DNA of 64,000 bases from Histomonas meleagridis. Its lineage: Eukaryota > Parabasalia > Tritrichomonadida > Dientamoebidae. Of the stretch, positions 41,195-58,759 are shown piece by piece. Where the stretch lies: contig WSYJ01000144.1 of assembly GCA_020186115.1 (NCBI GenBank), forward strand, positions 186,001-250,000, given 5' to 3'. Under the pieces are notes generated by a model. It was not told the origin of the DNA. It did no database searches and worked only from the letters and a program-made list of their open reading frames with translations. Position 1 is the first letter of the stretch; each line of letters begins with the position of its first letter. The position numbers and the translations under genes are program-made.

Positions 41195-41826
41195 ATGTGT
41201 ATATTTATTTTCTAACAACAGCGCTTATCCCTCCACCAAATTTTGGGTATGTTGAACCTGATTTATATCGTTGCTCAATTCCCGGTGAAATGAATTTTCC
41301 CTTTCTCCAGACACTCCATTTGAAAACAGTTGTTTATTTATCACTTGATACACCACCACAAATATTCCAAGAGTTTTTAAAAGAACAAGGGATTGAGTTC
41401 CGACAACTTCCAGGCGAAGGCACTAATGTTGGACAAAGAATCTCTGAGCAACTCATTTTAGATGCACTTCATGTTCTTTTAAATCCGGACTGTTACCCTC
41501 TTGTAGTAATGTGCAACCTTGGGAGACATCGAACAGGCACTGTTATTGGCTGCTTGCGGCGTCTCCAGAAGTGGAGTTTGTCTTCGATATTCGAAGAGTT
41601 TCGGCGGTTTACCGGTTCAAAATCGAGTACTTTACACGAGCAGTTTATCGAACTTTTTGATACGGAGCTTGTTGAGCTGCCTGCGGATGCTTCAAGGCTG
41701 CCTTTCAAGATAAGTTGTGTGTCAAATAATAGCGAAACTAAAAATGAAGCAAAGAAAGAAGAAATACCAAGAGCTAGAAATTTGTCAATGATTTCGAAAT
41801 CGTCGAATTCACTTCTCAAAAAATAA
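41195..41826 (+). CDS. Siw14/Oca-type atypical dual-specificity phosphatase, contains one intron
   Basis: The spliced product is 202 residues. The continuous frame has no ATG before a conserved region, but removing a 23-nt intron (41199-41221) gives M-S-L-IPPPNFGYVEPDLYRC, the normal start of Siw14-family domains. Further blocks are NFPFLQTLHLKTVVYLS, GIEFRQLPGEGTN and the catalytic Cx5R loop CNLGRHRTG (Cys about 99), then GCLRRLQKWSLSSIFEEFRR. Family enzymes hydrolyse inositol pyrophosphates or phosphoproteins. The residue before the Cys is Met rather than the usual His, which may affect activity. The C-terminal 50 residues are a polar tail. Confidence 0.87.
41199..41221 (+). other. 23-nt spliceosomal intron
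   Basis: It begins GTATAT and ends TCTAACAACAG. This matches the trichomonad layout in which the branch-point CTAAC is fused to the 3' splice site. Excision joins ATGT to CGCTTATC, creating an initiator methionine in frame with the phosphatase domain. It is among the shortest intron sizes known in eukaryotes. Confidence 0.85.
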
Positions 41827-51629: not shown

Positions 51630-51749
51630 ATTTTTTCTGTTTTTGCTGATACAAGTTTTCCTAGGTTTATAATTACGATAGGATTTTGAATGAATCGATG
51701 ATTGGGGTACACCATTTCACAAAAAAAGTCTAATCTTTTAAAATACTAC

Positions 51750-52658
51750 ATGTGCGAGAACGAAACAAAATTCAATGCATCACAGACAGAAAATCATTTG
51801 GAAAATAAAGTGGAATGTTCTAAAGCTGAAACCATCTTTATGCAAATTTTAAATGAACTTGAAAAAATAATTTTTAACTTAAATGAAGAAAATTTCAATA
51901 TATCAATTCATCAAGCAATGAACATATTTGATCCTAATTTTGTATATTCATTTAATATTGTTGTTTGTATATTGGTGTATACAGCATTTTCTTCTCTAAG
52001 TAATGATTATGATTTATATTTTAAATATTTAAAATCAATTCAATCGAAAGAAGAAGAATTAAAGAAAAACAATATTAAAATATTTGATATCTTTGGGAAA
52101 TATATCTCTAAAATTGAAACACAAGAAGCATATTTTCTTATAGAAAGAATGATTATGGAAAATTTAATTAATGAAAATATTACATCAAATATTCAATCTA
52201 AATATTTTGCTCATTATAAGACAGAATTAGAAAATAAAAATATTAATCAAAATGATCCATTCTCTAGAAAATTTTATGATAGTTATTCCAAACTTTCAAA
52301 TAATGATTTCGAACTTCATAAACAATTAGTAAAAGAAGGAGTTAATCCTAATGAAATTGCAAAAATAATTCGAAACGATAATGTTGAAAAACTTCAAGAA
52401 ATATCATCGCAAGAAGATTTTGATTTTAATCAAACAATTGAACCATCACTTTATGAAAGATACTCGTTTATTAATCAAGAAAATGTTTCATTAATTGGTT
52501 TTGCAGCATTTTTTTCTGCTATAAAATGTTTTAAATTTTTACTTATGAATGACGCTAATGTAAATGATATTGGTAAATATGTTATTGTAGGTGGAAACTT
52601 AGAGATTATTCATTTATGTGAACAAAATCACAAAAACTGGGAATTTTTATCTTGCTAA
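51750..52658 (+). CDS. DUF3447/ankyrin protein N-terminal part (locus iii), truncated by frameshift
   Basis: From the ATG at 51750 (MCENETKFNASQTENHLENK) 302 codons read through the helical N-terminal region and most of DUF3447 (ELHKQLVKEGVNPNEIAKII, VSLIGFAAFFSAIKCFKFLL, GGNLEIIHLCEQNH). The frame then stops after KNWEFLSC. Compared with locus iv, about 70 codons are missing just after CEQNH, and the frame is shifted at the join, so the following GNFYLAKHLIENNQIPKDIL lies in another frame (52618-52827). Either a truncated protein is made or the gene is a young pseudogene, although its downstream ankyrin modules are all intact. Confidence 0.8.
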   Translation: MCENETKFNASQTENHLENKVECSKAETIFMQILNELEKIIFNLNEENFNISIHQAMNIFDPNFVYSFNIVVCILVYTAFSSLSNDYDLYFKYLKSIQSKEEELKKNNIKIFDIFGKYISKIETQEAYFLIERMIMENLINENITSNIQSKYFAHYKTELENKNINQNDPFSRKFYDSYSKLSNNDFELHKQLVKEGVNPNEIAKIIRNDNVEKLQEISSQEDFDFNQTIEPSLYERYSFINQENVSLIGFAAFFSAIKCFKFLLMNDANVNDIGKYVIVGGNLEIIHLCEQNHKNWEFLSC

Positions 52659-55210
52659 ACATTTGATTGAAAATAATCAAATTCCAAAAGATATTTTGGT
52701 GTTTTCTTCTTGTTCTGATAATGTCGAACTAGTAAAATATATTCTTGAACAAAAAGATATAAATATCAATGAAAAAGATATTTTTTTTATTACTTTTAAA
52801 ATATGTTTTATGAATTTGATGATTTAAAATTATATTTGGAATATAATATAAATATTTAATACAGCACTTATTAGAGCTTCTGAAAATGGAAATAATGAAA
52901 TCGTGAAATTACTTCTTAAACAAGAGAAAATTGATCTCAATATTAAAAACATTAATTTGTTTTATTTAAAAATTTTTTTTAATGATTTTGGATTTTTAAA
53001 TAATATTTGGAAATTATTTCTAAAATTTGATATAGCATTAATAACAGCTTCTAAAAACAATCATATTGAAGTCATCAAATTACTTGTTGAACATGGAGGA
53101 TTTAATATTAATACTATAAATATTCAATTATTTTGTTTTATTTTTATTTTGATAATTAGATGTTTTAAAATAATATTTGGAAATTGTTCGAATAATTTAA
53201 AACAGCAATTATGTATGCATCTGAATATGGTTATATAGAAATTGTCAAATTACTTATTGAACAAAAAGGAATTGATAATAATAGTAAAAGCGTTTATTAC
53301 TTAATATCAATATTTAACACAATAATTTAATATTTTTAAAAAGCTTATGGAAAATATTCATAACACTTAACACAAATCTTATATTTGCATTGGAAAATGA
53401 TCACAAAGAAACCGTAATATTCCTTCTTGCACAAAAAGATGTAGATATCAATGTTAAAGGTATTTATTTATTAAGAATAAAGTTGATTTTAATATGTTGG
53501 AACTTCAAAATAGAATTTGGAAATTGTTAAAAACATTTCAATCTGCACTTATTATGGCATCTTTGAAAGGATATCTCGATATAGTCAAAATTCTTCTTAA
53601 AAAAGGAGTTACAAATGTTAATGAACATGATTTTTATTTGTAATATTATTTATTTATTTCATTTATTTGAAATTTCAAAATAATATTTGGAAATTAAAAA
53701 AATTATTTAAAACAGCACTTATTTATGCATCTAGAAAAGGTTATATAGAAATCGTTGAATTATTTCTTGAACAAGAAGGAATTGATGTGTATTCTAAAGA
53801 TATTTATTTTAATAATTTTATAGTATTTCAAAATAATATTTAGAAATTAAAAAAATTATTTAATACAGCACTTATGTATGCATCTCAAAATGGTCATACA
53901 GAAATAGTTAAAATACTTCTTGAACAAGAAGAAATTGATATTAATGTTAAAGGTATTTATTTGTTTTATTTGATATTTATTTTTGTTATTATATATTTCA
54001 AAATAATATTCAGAAATTATTTAAATTATTTAGAACAGCACTTATATATGCATCTTGGAATGGTCATATAGAAATAGTTAAATTACTTCTTGAACAAGAA
54101 GGAATTGATATTAATGCTCAAGACATTTATTTGTTTTATTTAATATTTATTTTAATAATTTGGGATTTCATTATAATATTCGGTAATTATTTATATTATT
54201 TAGAATAGCACTTATGTTTTCAGCAGAAGAAGGTAATACAGAAATAGTCAAATTACTACTTGAACAAAAGGAAGTTGACGTCTATGCGAGCACTATTAAT
54301 CTTGATAATTTAATATTCGTAAAAAATATTTTCAAAATATGTTTAATAAAATATTTTACAGCACTTACTTATGCAGCCCAAAAAGGTAAGATTGAAGTAG
54401 TTAAATTGCTTCTTGAAAAAAATAGAAAAGATTACAATGATAAATTTATTCTTTTCATTAATTTTATATTTCAAAACATTAAATGAAAATTATTTAAAAT
54501 TAATGATAAGGCACTTCTTTTTGCATCTGAATTTAGCTATATTGAAGTAGTTAGATTACTTCTTGAACATAATATCGATATCAATAATAAACACGATAAA
54601 TCAAAATAACATTTGGAAATGATTTAAATTATTTGATACAGCACTTATATATGCATCTTCAAATGGTCATATAGAAATAGTTAAATTACTTCTTGAACAA
54701 GAAGGAATTGATATTAATGCTAAAGGTATTTATTTGCTTTAAATTATGTATATTTTAATATTTTAGAATTTAAAAATAATATTTGGAAATTATATAAATT
54801 ATTTAAAACAGCACTTATTAGAGCATCTGAAAATGGTCGTACAGAAATAGTTAAATTACTTCTTGAACAAGAAGGAATTGATATTAATGCCAAAGATATT
54901 TATTTGTTTTATTTTGGATTTGTTTTAATAATTTTATATTTTAAAATAATATTCGGAAATTATTTAAATCATTTAATACAGTACTTATTATAGCATCTTG
55001 GAAAGGTCAAACAGAAGTAGCTAAATTACTTCTTGAACAAGAAGGAATTGATATTAATGCTAAAGATATTTATTTGTTTTATTTAAAATTTATTTTAATA
55101 TTTTCTTATTTCAAAATAATATTTGGAAATTATTTAAATTATTTGAAACAGCACTTGATTATGCAACTGAAAAAAGTCACTTAGAAATATGTAAATTATT
55201 TAAACAATAA
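52659..55210 (+). repeat. Tandem array of 15 ankyrin modules with frame-breaking spacers (locus iii)
   Basis: Fifteen modules of about 29 codons, from TAL to NAK (e.g. ALMYASQNGHTEIVKILLEQ), start near 52861 and end at a stop at 55208-55210 after a cap module (ALDYATEKSHLEICKLFKQ). No module contains a stop or frameshift. Spacers between NAK and CAGCACTT measure 88, 88, 87, 87, 87, 87, 70, 87, 87, 70, 66, 50, 87, 87 and 87 nt. They are AT-rich, contain stops and shift the frame in different ways. The period at the 3' end is exactly 170 bp. All but three spacers end in CAG or TAG just before the module. Confidence 0.9.
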
Positions 55211-56190
55211 AAAATCGAAAAAGAAATTTAACTCAAAGAATCTAGATGTTATAAAAAATTATGTAATCAAAAATGCGTTTAATTTATAAAAATTTATATT
55301 TCATATACTTTAATTTTTATTAGAAATTTTTTTTTGAAACATGTTGAGAGCCTTTTCATTTAGGCAGCATATGTGTCTTATATCAAAAAAATCATCATAA
55401 AACGCATAAAATTAACACTAGCAAAAATTCAAACCAATGAGATCAAATCAGAAATTTTAGATTACAATATTACTGTAAGTTATAAAGCAACACTTGGTTT
55501 TGCTTTGCATCATAAAAATTTACTTAGCAACTATAATGAAAAATTTAAACGGTTTCAAGACGTACAATTTTTTTAAAAAATAAGACGATTAAATATTTAA
55601 CAATAAATTTGCGAAAATTTTTGTCGGAAACCTCTGTAAAAGCTTCGTTTTTAACGTACTACCGTAGAACAAAAATAGTCACTTTTCAATTTAGCAATTT
55701 TGTGTAAATCTCCCAATTTCTCACTTTTTCATGATTTGTCTGATCGTTTCCAAAGCATATTTTTCTACAACTGCAATACATATGATGTATATTTGTATAT
55801 TTTGAAATTAATTTTAACAATTTCACATCAAAGTAATCTTTGGTCGTTCTTATTTTAGAATAATTTTGTTCATCATAAAAATTTGCAAATCCAGATCAAT
55901 GTAGAGAGGATATAGTCGAAAACAAAAGAAAATTTAAAAAGACAAACACATTTATAATTAATAAATGGAAACAAATATTTTTTTGACAAGTTTTCATGAG
56001 ATATTATAAATTGATTGAAAATTTTCAAATTACCATATATATAGTTTATTTTCAAAAACATAAAAATTTGAATGCTGCAAAAATCATCTACCTAACTAGA
56101 GAATTTCTCCGCAACTAAAAATTCTAGTTGAAATGATTGAGTACTCGGCATGTCAGTTTAAAAATAAACTATATAATTCGAAACAATTTT
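55211..56190. other. Intergenic between ankyrin loci
   Basis: About 1 kb. A Lys-rich open frame at 55373-55576 starts only with GTG and is not recognised. TCACTTTTC at 55680 resembles an initiator but is far from an ATG. No other signal. Confidence 0.45.
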
Positions 56191-57438
56191 ATGACAAATA
56201 CTTTCTGTATGGGAAAAACAAATAACCAAAACACTAATAAAAAAGGAGGAGATGAATGGGAAAAGCTTCTTTCAATCAAACATGCTATATTTGATTTGAA
56301 TCAAGAAAATATTGTTCAATCAGCAAACTCAATAATATCTAAATTTGATGAATTATATCCAGAATCCTTTAATCAAATAGTCAGTCAAATGATATATGTA
56401 TCATTTCTAAACAGGATAAAAGATGCTGATATATATTTGTATTTATTAAAAGAAATTGATACCTTCGAAGAAAAAAATAAATGTAAATCAAAAATATTTA
56501 AAGTATTTAAGAAAGTTTATTTTGAAAATTTTCCACAAGAATCATTTTATCTTCAAGCAAAAATGATTAACCGCAAATTCCTAGAATATGATTCTGTTGA
56601 TGATGAGGATCCATATTTTGTACATTATATGTCTGATAAGGAAATTGAAAATATAAAAAAATATTTAATGTCACAAGAGATTTTTGATAATTTCGAAGAA
56701 CTATCAAAGAACAATTGGGAGCTTCATAAGAAACTAATTGAAGAAGGACATAATCCGAATGAAATTGCGAAAATAATCCGAAATGATGAAATAGAAAAAC
56801 TTCAAGAAATATCATCACAAAATGATTTTGATTATAATCAAGCAATCAAACAATCTCTTTATGAAAGATGTTCATTTGTTAACAAAGATAATAATTTATT
56901 TTTTGATGAAGAAAGTGTTTCATTAATAGATTATGCAGCATTTTTTTCAGCAGTAAAATGTTTTAAATATTTACTTATGAATGATGCGGATGTAACAAAT
57001 ACAGGTAAATATGCTGTTGCAGGTGGAAATGAAGAAATCATTCATTTATGTGAACAAAATCATTCAACATTTAAAGATGCATATGAAGCAGCAATTGAAT
57101 TCCATAGAAATAAGATCTTTAAGTATATGTATGAAAATAAAATTGGTGAAATTAATGATTTAGAAGAATTAGGAATTGTTTGTGTTACATTTCATAATTA
57201 TGAAATTTTTACATTTTTGCATGAAAAAGGAATGGATATAAATGAAGAAATTATTAAAGAATCAGCAAGAATCGGAAATATATTTCTTGTTAAACATTTT
57301 CTTTCATTCCTTGAACTTCCAAAAGATATATTAGTAATTTCTTCAGATAATATTGAAATGGTCAAATATTTTTTAGAACAAGAAGGAATTGATATTAACG
57401 CTAAAGACATTTATTTGTTTTATTTGATATTTATTTGA
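56191..57438 (+). CDS. DUF3447/ankyrin protein N-terminal part (locus iv), intact
   Basis: The ATG at 56191 (or 56209) opens 415 codons. A helical N-terminal region of ~190 residues is followed by full-length DUF3447: ELHKKLIEEGHNPNEIAKII, LYERCSFVNKDN, VSLIDYAAFFSAVKCFKYLL, YAVAGGNEEIIHLCEQNHST, AYEAAIEFHRNKIFKYMYEN, YEIFTFLHEKGMDIN. A first ankyrin unit ends EQEGIDINAK, and the frame then runs into spacer sequence (DIYLFYLIFI) and stops. This is the best reference copy in the window for DUF3447. The stop lies inside the first spacer, which suggests that the mature protein continues by splicing or ends there. Confidence 0.88.
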   Translation: MTNTFCMGKTNNQNTNKKGGDEWEKLLSIKHAIFDLNQENIVQSANSIISKFDELYPESFNQIVSQMIYVSFLNRIKDADIYLYLLKEIDTFEEKNKCKSKIFKVFKKVYFENFPQESFYLQAKMINRKFLEYDSVDDEDPYFVHYMSDKEIENIKKYLMSQEIFDNFEELSKNNWELHKKLIEEGHNPNEIAKIIRNDEIEKLQEISSQNDFDYNQAIKQSLYERCSFVNKDNNLFFDEESVSLIDYAAFFSAVKCFKYLLMNDADVTNTGKYAVAGGNEEIIHLCEQNHSTFKDAYEAAIEFHRNKIFKYMYENKIGEINDLEELGIVCVTFHNYEIFTFLHEKGMDINEEIIKESARIGNIFLVKHFLSFLELPKDILVISSDNIEMVKYFLEQEGIDINAKDIYLFYLIFI

Positions 57439-58759
57439 ATAATTTAATATTTCAAAATAATATTTGGAAATTATTTAAATTATTTGAAACAGCACTTCTG
57501 AAAGCATCTTATCGTGGTCATACAGAAATAGTTCAATTACTTCTTGAACAAAAAGGAATTGATGTTAATGCTAAAAATATTTATTTTGTTGATATGATAT
57601 TTGTTTCTATGATTTTCTATTTTAAAATGATATTTGAAAATTATTTAAATTGTTTGAAACAGCACTTATTTGTGCATCTCAACTTGGTTACAAAGAAATA
57701 ATAAAATTGCTTCTTAAACATGAAGGAATTGACATTAATGCTAAAAATATTTATTCGTTTTATTTGAATTTTATTTTAATAATTTGATAAATCAAAATAA
57801 TATTTAGAAATTATTTTATTTATTTGAAACAGCACTTATGGAAGCATCTCATAATGGTTATACAGAAATAGTTCAATTACTTCTTGAACAAAAAGGAATC
57901 GATGTAAATGTTGAAGATATTTAAATGTTTGATTTATAATTTAGCCAAGAAATTTCGGATTTAAAAATAAAATTTGGAAATTGTTCAAAACATTTTATAC
58001 AGCTCTTATGGAAGCAACTAATGATGGTAAAGAAGAAGTTGTTAAATTACTTCTTAAACACAAAGGAATTGATATTAACGTTAAAAATATTAAAGTGTTT
58101 TATTTATGTTTTAGTAAAATAATTTCGGATTTCAAAGTGAAATTTGGAATTCATTTAAATTATTTGAAACAGCACTTATGTGGGCATCTCGTAATAAAAC
58201 AGAAATATTTAAGCTACTTCTTGAGCAAGAGGGCATAGATATTAATGCCAAGGATATTTATTCATTTCATTTAATGTATATTTTTAAAATTAGATATTTC
58301 AAAATAATATTTGGAAATTATATAAATTATTTGTAACAGCACTTATGAGTGCATCTATACATAATCATATCGAAATGGTTAAATTACTTCTTAATCAAAA
58401 GGGCATTGATATTAATGCTAAAAATGTTTATTCATTTTATTTAATATATATTTCAATAAATCGAAATTTCAAATTAATATATGGAAATCTTTCAAATTAT
58501 ATTGGACAGCACTTATTTGTGCAACAGTTAACAACAATATAGAAACAGTTAAATTACTTCTTGAACAAAAAGGAATTGATGTTAATGTTAAAGATATTTA
58601 TTTGTTTTATAAAATATGTATTTCATTAAAATGAAGTATCAAAATAATATTTGGAAATTATTTTCATTATTTAAAACAGCTCTTGATTATGTTGATCAAA
58701 ATCAAAAAGAAATTGTTGAGTTAATTGGAAAAAAATTATTAACAAACTCAAAAGATTAG
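57439..58759 (+). repeat. Tandem array of 8 ankyrin modules with frame-breaking spacers (locus iv)
   Basis: Eight modules begin at 57489, 57659 and 57829 and continue at about 170-bp intervals. Examples are ALLKASYRGHTEIVQLLLEQ and ALMSASIHNHIEMVKLLLNQ. None contains a stop; one lacks exactly one codon. Seven spacers, each counted from the NAK codon to CAG, are 87 nt. The last module (ALDYVDQNQKEIVELIGKKL) ends in a stop at 58757-58759, like the cap of locus iii. Spacer 5' ends are mostly (G/A)ATATTTATT, rarely GT. Confidence 0.9.

Follow-up and report, generated by a model that had tools for sequence, protein, structure and literature searches.

Candidate 17-nucleotide intervening sequences without GT-AG ends between codons of ankyrin-repeat linkers in Histomonas meleagridis

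Ultrashort spliceosomal introns have been described in Mikrocytos and Paramikrocytos (16-17 nucleotides, nt) and in heterotrich ciliates (15-16 nt), and 224 introns are given for M. mackini (PMC10245619). Among parabasalids, 63 active introns with extended splice motifs are reported for Trichomonas vaginalis (PMC12316389), and known introns of the group combine an extended 5' site with a fused branch and 3' site (PMC6679479). For two strains of Histomonas meleagridis an AUGUSTUS annotation lists 573 and 638 introns, which it describes as scarce and at most one per gene (PMC8529796). Here we analyse a 64,000-nt stretch of this genome (the window: assembly GCA_020186115.1, contig WSYJ01000144.1, positions 186,001 to 250,000 of the forward strand; C80:186001-250000), in which the ankyrin arrays of two loci, iii and iv, are interrupted between whole codons by 17-nt elements; genome-wide counts cover the 43.28-Mb assembly of 121 contigs. 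Judged from the sequence, the arrays are very probably protein-coding ankyrin genes with 17-nt introns of a new class, which lack the GT-AG ends and would be removed from the RNA.

The two arrays contain 23 modules, 15 in locus iii (from position 52861) and eight in locus iv (from 57489), each stop-free in its own frame, and an ALDY cap module with a stop closes both, as the original prediction had stated. Its further statement that every spacer breaks the frame holds for most of them, but two of the 21 spacers between the listed modules are open in frame. The module and spacer statistics that follow come from part of the genome's arrays. A frame-blind DNA-profile search of a subset of loci returned 424 module matches, of which 387 were near full length; the 37 shorter hits were left unjudged, and strongly decayed modules would be missed by such a search. 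An in-frame stop is present in five of the 387 modules and a frame-breaking indel in six, the remaining indels being 3, 6 or 9 nt long, and this intactness exceeds chance. Among 328 consecutive units with lengths below 260 nt, the commonest lengths are 170 nt (196 units), 153 nt (50), 173 nt (16) and 150 nt (14); because 170 is not a multiple of three, neighbouring 170-nt units lie in different frames. Genome-wide, a 26-base piece of the module has 850 exact matches and a 38-base piece 3,815 matches at up to three mismatches, with no match to the reversed control in either case. The variable codons within the module correspond to repeat positions 10, 13 and 14 (our own numbering). Where ankyrin repeats of this genome have no spacer, most measure 102 nt (34 amino acids) and carry the linker D-x-x-G-x-T.

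The spacers have an internal structure, in which elements of 17 nt alternate with single codons. In its usual form a spacer has the sequence GAT ATTTATTTGTTTTATTT xxx ATTTATTTTAATAATTT xxx ATTTCAAAATAATATTT GGA AATTATTTAAATTATTT xxx ACA GCA CTT, that is, four AT-rich elements of 17 nt with single in-frame codons between them. The usual element has the form RUUUAUUU.....AUUU, the fourth element of the array linker starts with AA, and two to seven elements are found per linker (by eye for the longest arrays). When the 17-mers are omitted, the linker D-x-x-G-x-T and the 34-residue repeat are restored, with the inter-element codons as linker residues 2, 3, 4 (Gly) and 5, and the product has the 33-34-residue repeat and the linker of the ankyrin family. 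Variation follows the same division. Across 190 distinct 170-nt units the mean per-base variability is 0.09-0.10 in the 17-mers and 0.35, 0.41, 0.135 and 0.45 in the inter-element triplets, and no other spacer triplet varies as much as the first, second and fourth of these (offsets 107, 127 and 167). Stops occur at these offsets in 0, 0 and 1 of the 190 units, against 7.1, 12.0 and 21.0 expected from base independence; the codon at offset 147 encodes Gly in 149 units and is never a stop, and the first linker residue is Asp in 121. Other spacer triplets average 13.2 stops per 190 units, yet 16 of 60 offsets are also stop-free. In 181 distinct four-element spacers Gly stands at the fourth position 140 times, and 0, 1, 7 and 1 times in readings displaced by -2, -1, +1 and +2 bases.

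The original reading, in which the spacers are removed and the modules are joined into a single protein, is partly supported: removal finds support, but the unit removed would be the 17-nt element and not the whole spacer. A whole-spacer intron with a GT or AT start and an ACAG end was rejected: some diverged spacers do not preserve the AG (by eye), the repeat joined in this way would have no beta-turn, and triplets within the spacer behave as codons. A plain 20-nt repeat reading of the spacer was replaced by 17 + 3. In-frame read-through of the 153-nt units also fails as a general solution, with a stop in the spacer of 19 of 48 such units and in the module of none.

The length of the element was examined with a strict rule, which demands A or G as the first base, TT, AT, TA, AA or TC as the next two, TTT at the end, stop-free codons and four to six linker codons. 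With elements of 17 nt, 136 of 301 distinct spacers parse, 108 of these with a five-codon linker. Not one spacer parses at any length in the ranges 10-16 and 18-23 nt, one or two do so at each of 25, 28, 31 and 34 nt, and no shuffled spacer parses. Between 10 and 23 nt, 17 nt is the only length that parses, and it falls within the narrow range of 15-17 nt of mikrocytid and heterotrich introns. When the end rule is dropped and a stop-free reading is required, 17 nt suits 279 of the 301 spacers, 16 nt 65 and 18 nt 62, the remaining tested lengths, 13 nt apart (see below), giving 0-19. A multiple of 17 nt plus a whole-codon module of 93-108 nt accounts for 306 of 323 unit lengths, and other control lengths from 14 to 23 nt for 12-96. 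As in an intervening sequence, the length of 17 nt is independent of frame and the exons are nearly stop-free.

That the frame survives only when exactly 17 nt are skipped every time would also suit programmed bypassing, in which the mRNA retains the 17-mers and each is skipped by the ribosome. Bypassing of short elements occurs in mitochondria and in a phage gene. However, about four jumps per 34 residues would be required, some 30-60 in the protein of a window array, and no match between take-off and landing codons is visible because three of the flanking codons are hypervariable, which makes bypassing very unlikely.

A comparison with homologues is offered by L050 (C36:113795-115050), a non-array ankyrin gene and the sole close genomic match to P0049, an unbroken 410-residue protein of a relative (70% identity over the first L050 piece; 32% at the next genomic locus). 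The pieces of L050 span P0049 residues 1-217, 220-286 and 290-396 at 70, 75 and 48% identity. The first gap is GTTTTTTTCTAATATTT-AGTGGC-GTTTATTTAACATATTT, with the codons SG between the 17-mers, and the second is ATCCATTTGATTTTTTT-GGA-ATTTTTTTGAAATTTTT, with the codon G. L050 therefore reads NSET[17]SG[17]RSLAH and LSGN[17]G[17]EHPLH where P0049 has ESETSGRSLAH and TNPNGKQALH, and in this one gene the inserts are absent from the homologous proteins while the flanking residues are contiguous. At the second gap exactly one residue, Gly, is present in 12 of 12 aligned homologues (P0049-P0060, one of them from Tritrichomonas musculus), four of which have one extra residue a few columns ahead of it. 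The parse N|G|E of the second junction predates the comparison; that of the first junction has no prior record.

These observations bear on the view that the arrays are decaying pseudogenes or a satellite, whose modules look intact through recent homogenisation. On the one hand, at least one array (L009) has no cap and runs out into other DNA, and the 5' domain of locus iii is broken. On the other hand, stops are found in just 5 of the 387 modules, the inter-element codons avoid stops (at a rate below the base-frequency expectation) and vary like ankyrin residues, and L050, a conserved gene with one close copy, bears the same inserts. Decay of this kind is extremely improbable.

The elements are spread widely in the genome. 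A stretch of element, GGA and element has 3,590 matches at up to three mismatches (reversed pattern, 0), from which 7,180 elements are counted directly; their number probably exceeds 10,000, because there are three or four per linker. Inserts at linkers are also found in several non-array ankyrin genes. Twenty-three elements were cut from clear non-array cases, whose contexts were picked from 17-nt readings; 11 start with GT and nine with AT, 21 end in TTT and none ends in AG. Among kinase genes, 126 of the 133 matches listed lack an internal stop (132 of 635 candidates were scored), so the elements are not a feature of all genes. The seven stop-bearing kinase matches (C108:92803-93612, C48:408626-409432, C84:1579808-1580623, C112:732639-733451, C55:111894-112511, C13:18775-19677 and C84:1668313-1669179), several of which are longer than usual, possibly contain introns. 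Another kinase match, C78:376002-376739 (minus strand), lies within an open frame given as 22,955 residues long. The 5' domain of the arrays, DUF3447, is stop-free within the match in 93 of 101 scored copies (101 of 6,906 candidates were scored), and the family therefore looks maintained.

Two further explanations were considered. The tandem units are numerous and nearly identical, their variation falls mainly at surface positions, and they could form a silent cassette store that recombines into an expression site, the alternative raised in the original prediction; and elements that are short, AT-rich, precise and inside coding sequence recall the internal eliminated sequences of ciliates, in which case the transcribed copy would be element-free. 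In the assembly, for which parasite DNA was sequenced with both Nanopore and Illumina (PMC8529796), a search for one form of element-free junction, AATGCTAAAGAT-N6..14-ACAGCACTT, gave 0 matches, which argues against excision from DNA and leaves a cassette store without a spacer-free recipient junction of that form. The stop-free state of 93 of the 101 scored 5' domains and the presence of the same elements in non-array genes also speak against the store. Excision from DNA is highly improbable, and the cassette reservoir, which finds no support here, is equally so.

Predicted proteins of relatives may carry traces of the same elements. Of 15 predicted proteins from close relatives (P0001-P0014 and P0016), 13 stop 0 to about 27 residues past the start of the first linker, several of the 13 ending as KDI (both by eye). 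Among 22 further relatives, entries of Tritrichomonas foetus and T. musculus included, the end of 15 lies in an ankyrin linker, and their tails mostly begin with Ile or Val (by eye); these tails are suggestive of the translation of unrecognised RTTT... elements. P0025, a T. musculus DUF3447 protein, and four close relatives, P0037, P0038, P0039 and P0041, end past an ankyrin linker Gly with an Ile-first tail, and their gene models are perhaps cut at an unrecognised element. In P0014 a linker of three-element length is apparently translated straight through, which is possible because 51 nt keeps the frame. A profile survey of tritrichomonad proteins gave 14 hits, bacterial, fungal and animal ankyrins among them, and four usable new relatives (P0037-P0039 and P0041).

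The absence of a consistent GT and of CTAAC at the spacers, noted in the original prediction, extends to the elements themselves. Of 904 array elements one is GT..AG, a number that does not change when both ends are slid by up to 3 nt, and none contains CTAAC; 622 have neither GT nor AG. Among the 904, 554 start with AT, 229 with AA and 49 with GT, and 739 end in TTT and five in AG, so that as a set the 904 elements do not show the GT-AG ends and the parabasalid CTAAC branch motif of U2-type introns. An intron-like sequence of 23 nt, GTATATTTATTTTCTAACAACAG at 41199-41221 (plus strand), with GT..CTAAC..AG, follows directly after ATG T of a frame that translates as SLIPPPNFGYVEPDLYRCSIPGEMNFP and looks like a SIW14-type phosphatase. 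The 17-mers could be shrunken spliceosomal introns that have lost the GT-AG rule and are cut by the spliceosome presumed to remove this 23-nt intron; such a reading is one form of removal from RNA and overlaps the explanation preferred here. The stretch ATTTATTTT is common to the 23-nt intron and the 17-mers, the GT start of 11 of the 23 non-array elements points the same way, and a length of 15-17 nt is known for spliceosomal introns of mikrocytids and heterotrich ciliates (PMC10245619). Against it stand the composition of the array elements just described and the extended 5' site and fused branch and 3' site that known parabasalid introns retain (PMC6679479), and a spliceosomal origin is possible but rather doubtful.

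Several observations weigh against 17-nt introns as a general account. Two spacers of locus iii are open when read straight, 52861-53032 (within an open reading frame of 128 residues) and 54205-54358 (99 residues), as are 29 of the 48 in-frame 153-nt units. Stop-free readings are obtained for 169, 171 and 163 of the 181 four-element spacers at shifts of -2, +1 and +2, against 180 unshifted; because shifted readings are nearly as open, stops by themselves are a poor guide, and the element borders are fixed by variability and Gly. An element of 13 nt gives stop-free readings of 188 of 301 spacers without end rules and fits 242 of 323 unit lengths; it was rejected, as it fits the lengths by arithmetic but no spacer parses with it under the strict rule. 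Seventeen of the 323 unit lengths are unexplained by 17 nt, ten of them being 171 nt, and the strict parse fails on 165 of the 301 spacers. When the ends were tested in the 181 four-element spacers, 81 passed all eight tests, 57 failed one and 43 failed two to five. Of 19 non-array junctions parsed, 12 gave an exact-17 parse, four needed 16-18 nt and three had none; among the 12, three parses are not canonical or not preferred and several junctions have multiple parses.

The reading of the arrays as genes with 17-nt introns is carried, at the level of sequence, by the 17-nt unit, the retained single codons, the protein-like variation and the agreement with homologues. According to it, AU-rich intervening sequences of 17 nt would lie at codon boundaries within the ankyrin beta-turn D-x-x-G-x-T and be removed one by one from the transcript, whereby D|x|x|G|x-T would join into a continuous 34-residue repeat. 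Variation at repeat positions 2, 3, 5, 10, 13 and 14 (our numbering) would then provide diverse binding surfaces. Since the 17-mers have neither GT-AG ends nor a branch site, the simplest reading is that they would be recognised by their U-rich ends and their fixed length. Linkers with extra elements look as if a 20-nt unit of codon plus element had been duplicated in tandem. A more specific proposal, which we put forward tentatively, is that parabasalids of the Histomonas/Tritrichomonas group possess a second, non-spliceosomal RNA processing system. It would measure 17-nt U-rich segments (RUUU...UUU) and cut them out of ankyrin mRNAs, dozens from each transcript, so that single-codon exons are left.

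In the window, where the features listed below all lie on the plus strand, 21 linkers were read by a fixed 17/3 scheme. They contain 79 elements (one counted as 18 nt) and 102 codons, none of which is a stop, and Gly is at linker position 4 in 15 of the 21. The 5' (DUF3447-type) domain frame of locus iii lies at 51702..52658 in the list of open reading frames; it was assigned by eye through comparison with the frame 56137-57438 and has no Pfam match of its own. It has a frame-breaking deletion near 52640 and is about 80 residues short compared with locus iv (by eye), and this copy may be a pseudogene despite its intact array. The first linkers of both loci fit the same 17/3 scheme, that of locus iii (52777..52860) with one 18-nt element in a reading by hand: D[52780-52797, 18 nt]K[52801-52817]D[52821-52837]G[52841-52857]N. 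The array of 15 modules, the last being the cap with the stop, spans 52861..55210, with T codons at 52861, 53032, 53202, 53372, 53542, 53712, 53865 and 54035 (modules 1-8) and 54205, 54358, 54508, 54638, 54808, 54978 and 55148 (modules 9-15).

Its linkers, with elements and codons, are 52951..53028 (52951-52967, 52971-52988 of 18 nt, 52992-53008, 53012-53028; N K W G D), 53122..53198 (53122-53138, 53142-53158, 53162-53178, 53182-53198; N Y D G K), 53292..53368 (53292-53308, 53312-53328, 53332-53348, 53352-53368; S N N G N), 53462..53538 (53462-53478, 53482-53498, 53502-53518, 53522-53538; G K G G Q), 53632..53708 (53632-53648, 53652-53668, 53672-53688, 53692-53708; D F E G K), 53955..54031 (53955-53971, 53975-53991, 53995-54011, 54015-54031; G D Y R R), 54125..54201 (54125-54141, 54145-54161, 54165-54181, 54185-54201; D N G G R), 54728..54804 (54728-54744, 54748-54764, 54768-54784, 54788-54804; G Y R G K), 54898..54974 (54898-54914, 54918-54934, 54938-54954, 54958-54974; D W Y G N) and 55068..55144 (55068-55084, 55088-55104, 55108-55124, 55128-55144; D K L G E). 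Three linkers have three elements: 53802..53861 (53802-53818, 53825-53841, 53845-53861; D, Y S, R, N by the strict parse, the fixed scheme alternatively setting the first element at 53805-53821), 54295..54357 (54295-54311, 54315-54331, 54341-54357; T, N, S K Y by the strict parse), which is diverged, of uncertain placement (the fixed scheme differs) and also open when read straight, and 54448..54504 (54448-54464, 54468-54484, 54488-54504; F Y E D). One, 54598..54634, has two (54598-54614, 54618-54634; D G D).

Locus iv has an intact DUF3447/ankyrin 5' domain, an open frame that extends from 56137 to the D codon of the first linker (56137..57408; Pfam PF11929, E=3.1e-10), followed by that linker at 57409..57485 (57409-57425, 57429-57445, 57449-57465, 57469-57485; D D N G E). 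The array of eight modules spans 57489..58759, the last module being the cap with the stop TAG at 58757-58759, and its T codons are at 57489, 57659, 57829, 57999, 58169, 58336, 58506 and 58676. The linkers between them are 57579..57655 (57579-57595, 57599-57615, 57619-57635, 57639-57655; N D S E E), 57749..57825 (57749-57765, 57769-57785, 57789-57805, 57809-57825; N E D R E), 57919..57995 (57919-57935, 57939-57955, 57959-57975, 57979-57995; D I R G Y), 58089..58165 (58089-58105, 58109-58125, 58129-58145, 58149-58165; N M R G E), 58256..58332 (58256-58272, 58276-58292, 58296-58312, 58316-58332; D N D G V), 58426..58502 (58426-58442, 58446-58462, 58466-58482, 58486-58502; N N E G W) and 58596..58672 (58596-58612, 58616-58632, 58636-58652, 58656-58672; D N E G K). 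Outside the window, L059 (C53), L061 (C11), L063 (C40), L065 (C40) and L067 (C109) belong to a second array subfamily (TALHIAVRNNNIEIVKLLLDKGIDVNAK); its linkers have two to seven elements and differ by whole 20-nt steps (by eye for the longest arrays).

If the proposed reading is true, the elements would form a class of fixed-length nuclear intervening sequences without GT-AG and the known branch motif, at a density of about four per 102 coding bases, for which no match was met in the open-licence texts covered. Searches of open-licence PMC texts listed no title or abstract beginning with a description of the 17-nt elements, a scope that leaves subscription papers and preprints outside. Such a density contrasts with the published annotation of the organism, in which introns are called scarce, at most one per gene (PMC8529796). 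A large ankyrin gene family would become readable, the question would be raised of which machinery cuts 17-mers one codon apart, and a view would be opened of intron gain through units of codon plus element that are duplicated in tandem. The truncated protein models suggest that tritrichomonads share the elements; if they do, the ankyrin proteins annotated in that group may be terminated by false stops. Should the spliceosome do the removal, the finding would be a new variant of the known spliceosomal introns of 15-17 nt (PMC10245619).

How do the 17-mers compare with known systems? Like the canonical introns of parabasalids, those of T. vaginalis and the 23-nt intron of the window, they are short and occur in the same organism group, but they lack the motifs of these introns. 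They resemble the ultrashort introns of mikrocytids and heterotrichs in their near-fixed length of about 17 nt, uniform sequence and location in nuclear protein-coding genes; however, the latter are described as spliceosomal (PMC10245619), whereas the 17-mers lack GT-AG and CTAAC. The 17-mers, moreover, occupy up to four adjacent codon boundaries per repeat, often leave one-codon exons and number thousands in one protein class. Intervening sequences without GT-AG are also represented by the non-conventional introns of euglenids and by mitochondrial byps, which have other lengths and occur in other organisms, and no relationship to the 17-mers is claimed. In designed ankyrin libraries repeat positions 2, 3, 5, 13 and 14 are randomised. 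Read without the 17-mers, the arrays share the linker D-x-x-G-x-T with the ankyrin repeat (PF00023/PF12796) and the variable positions 2, 3, 5, 13 and 14 with these libraries; what sets them apart is that the codons of the linker are scattered among 17-nt inserts.

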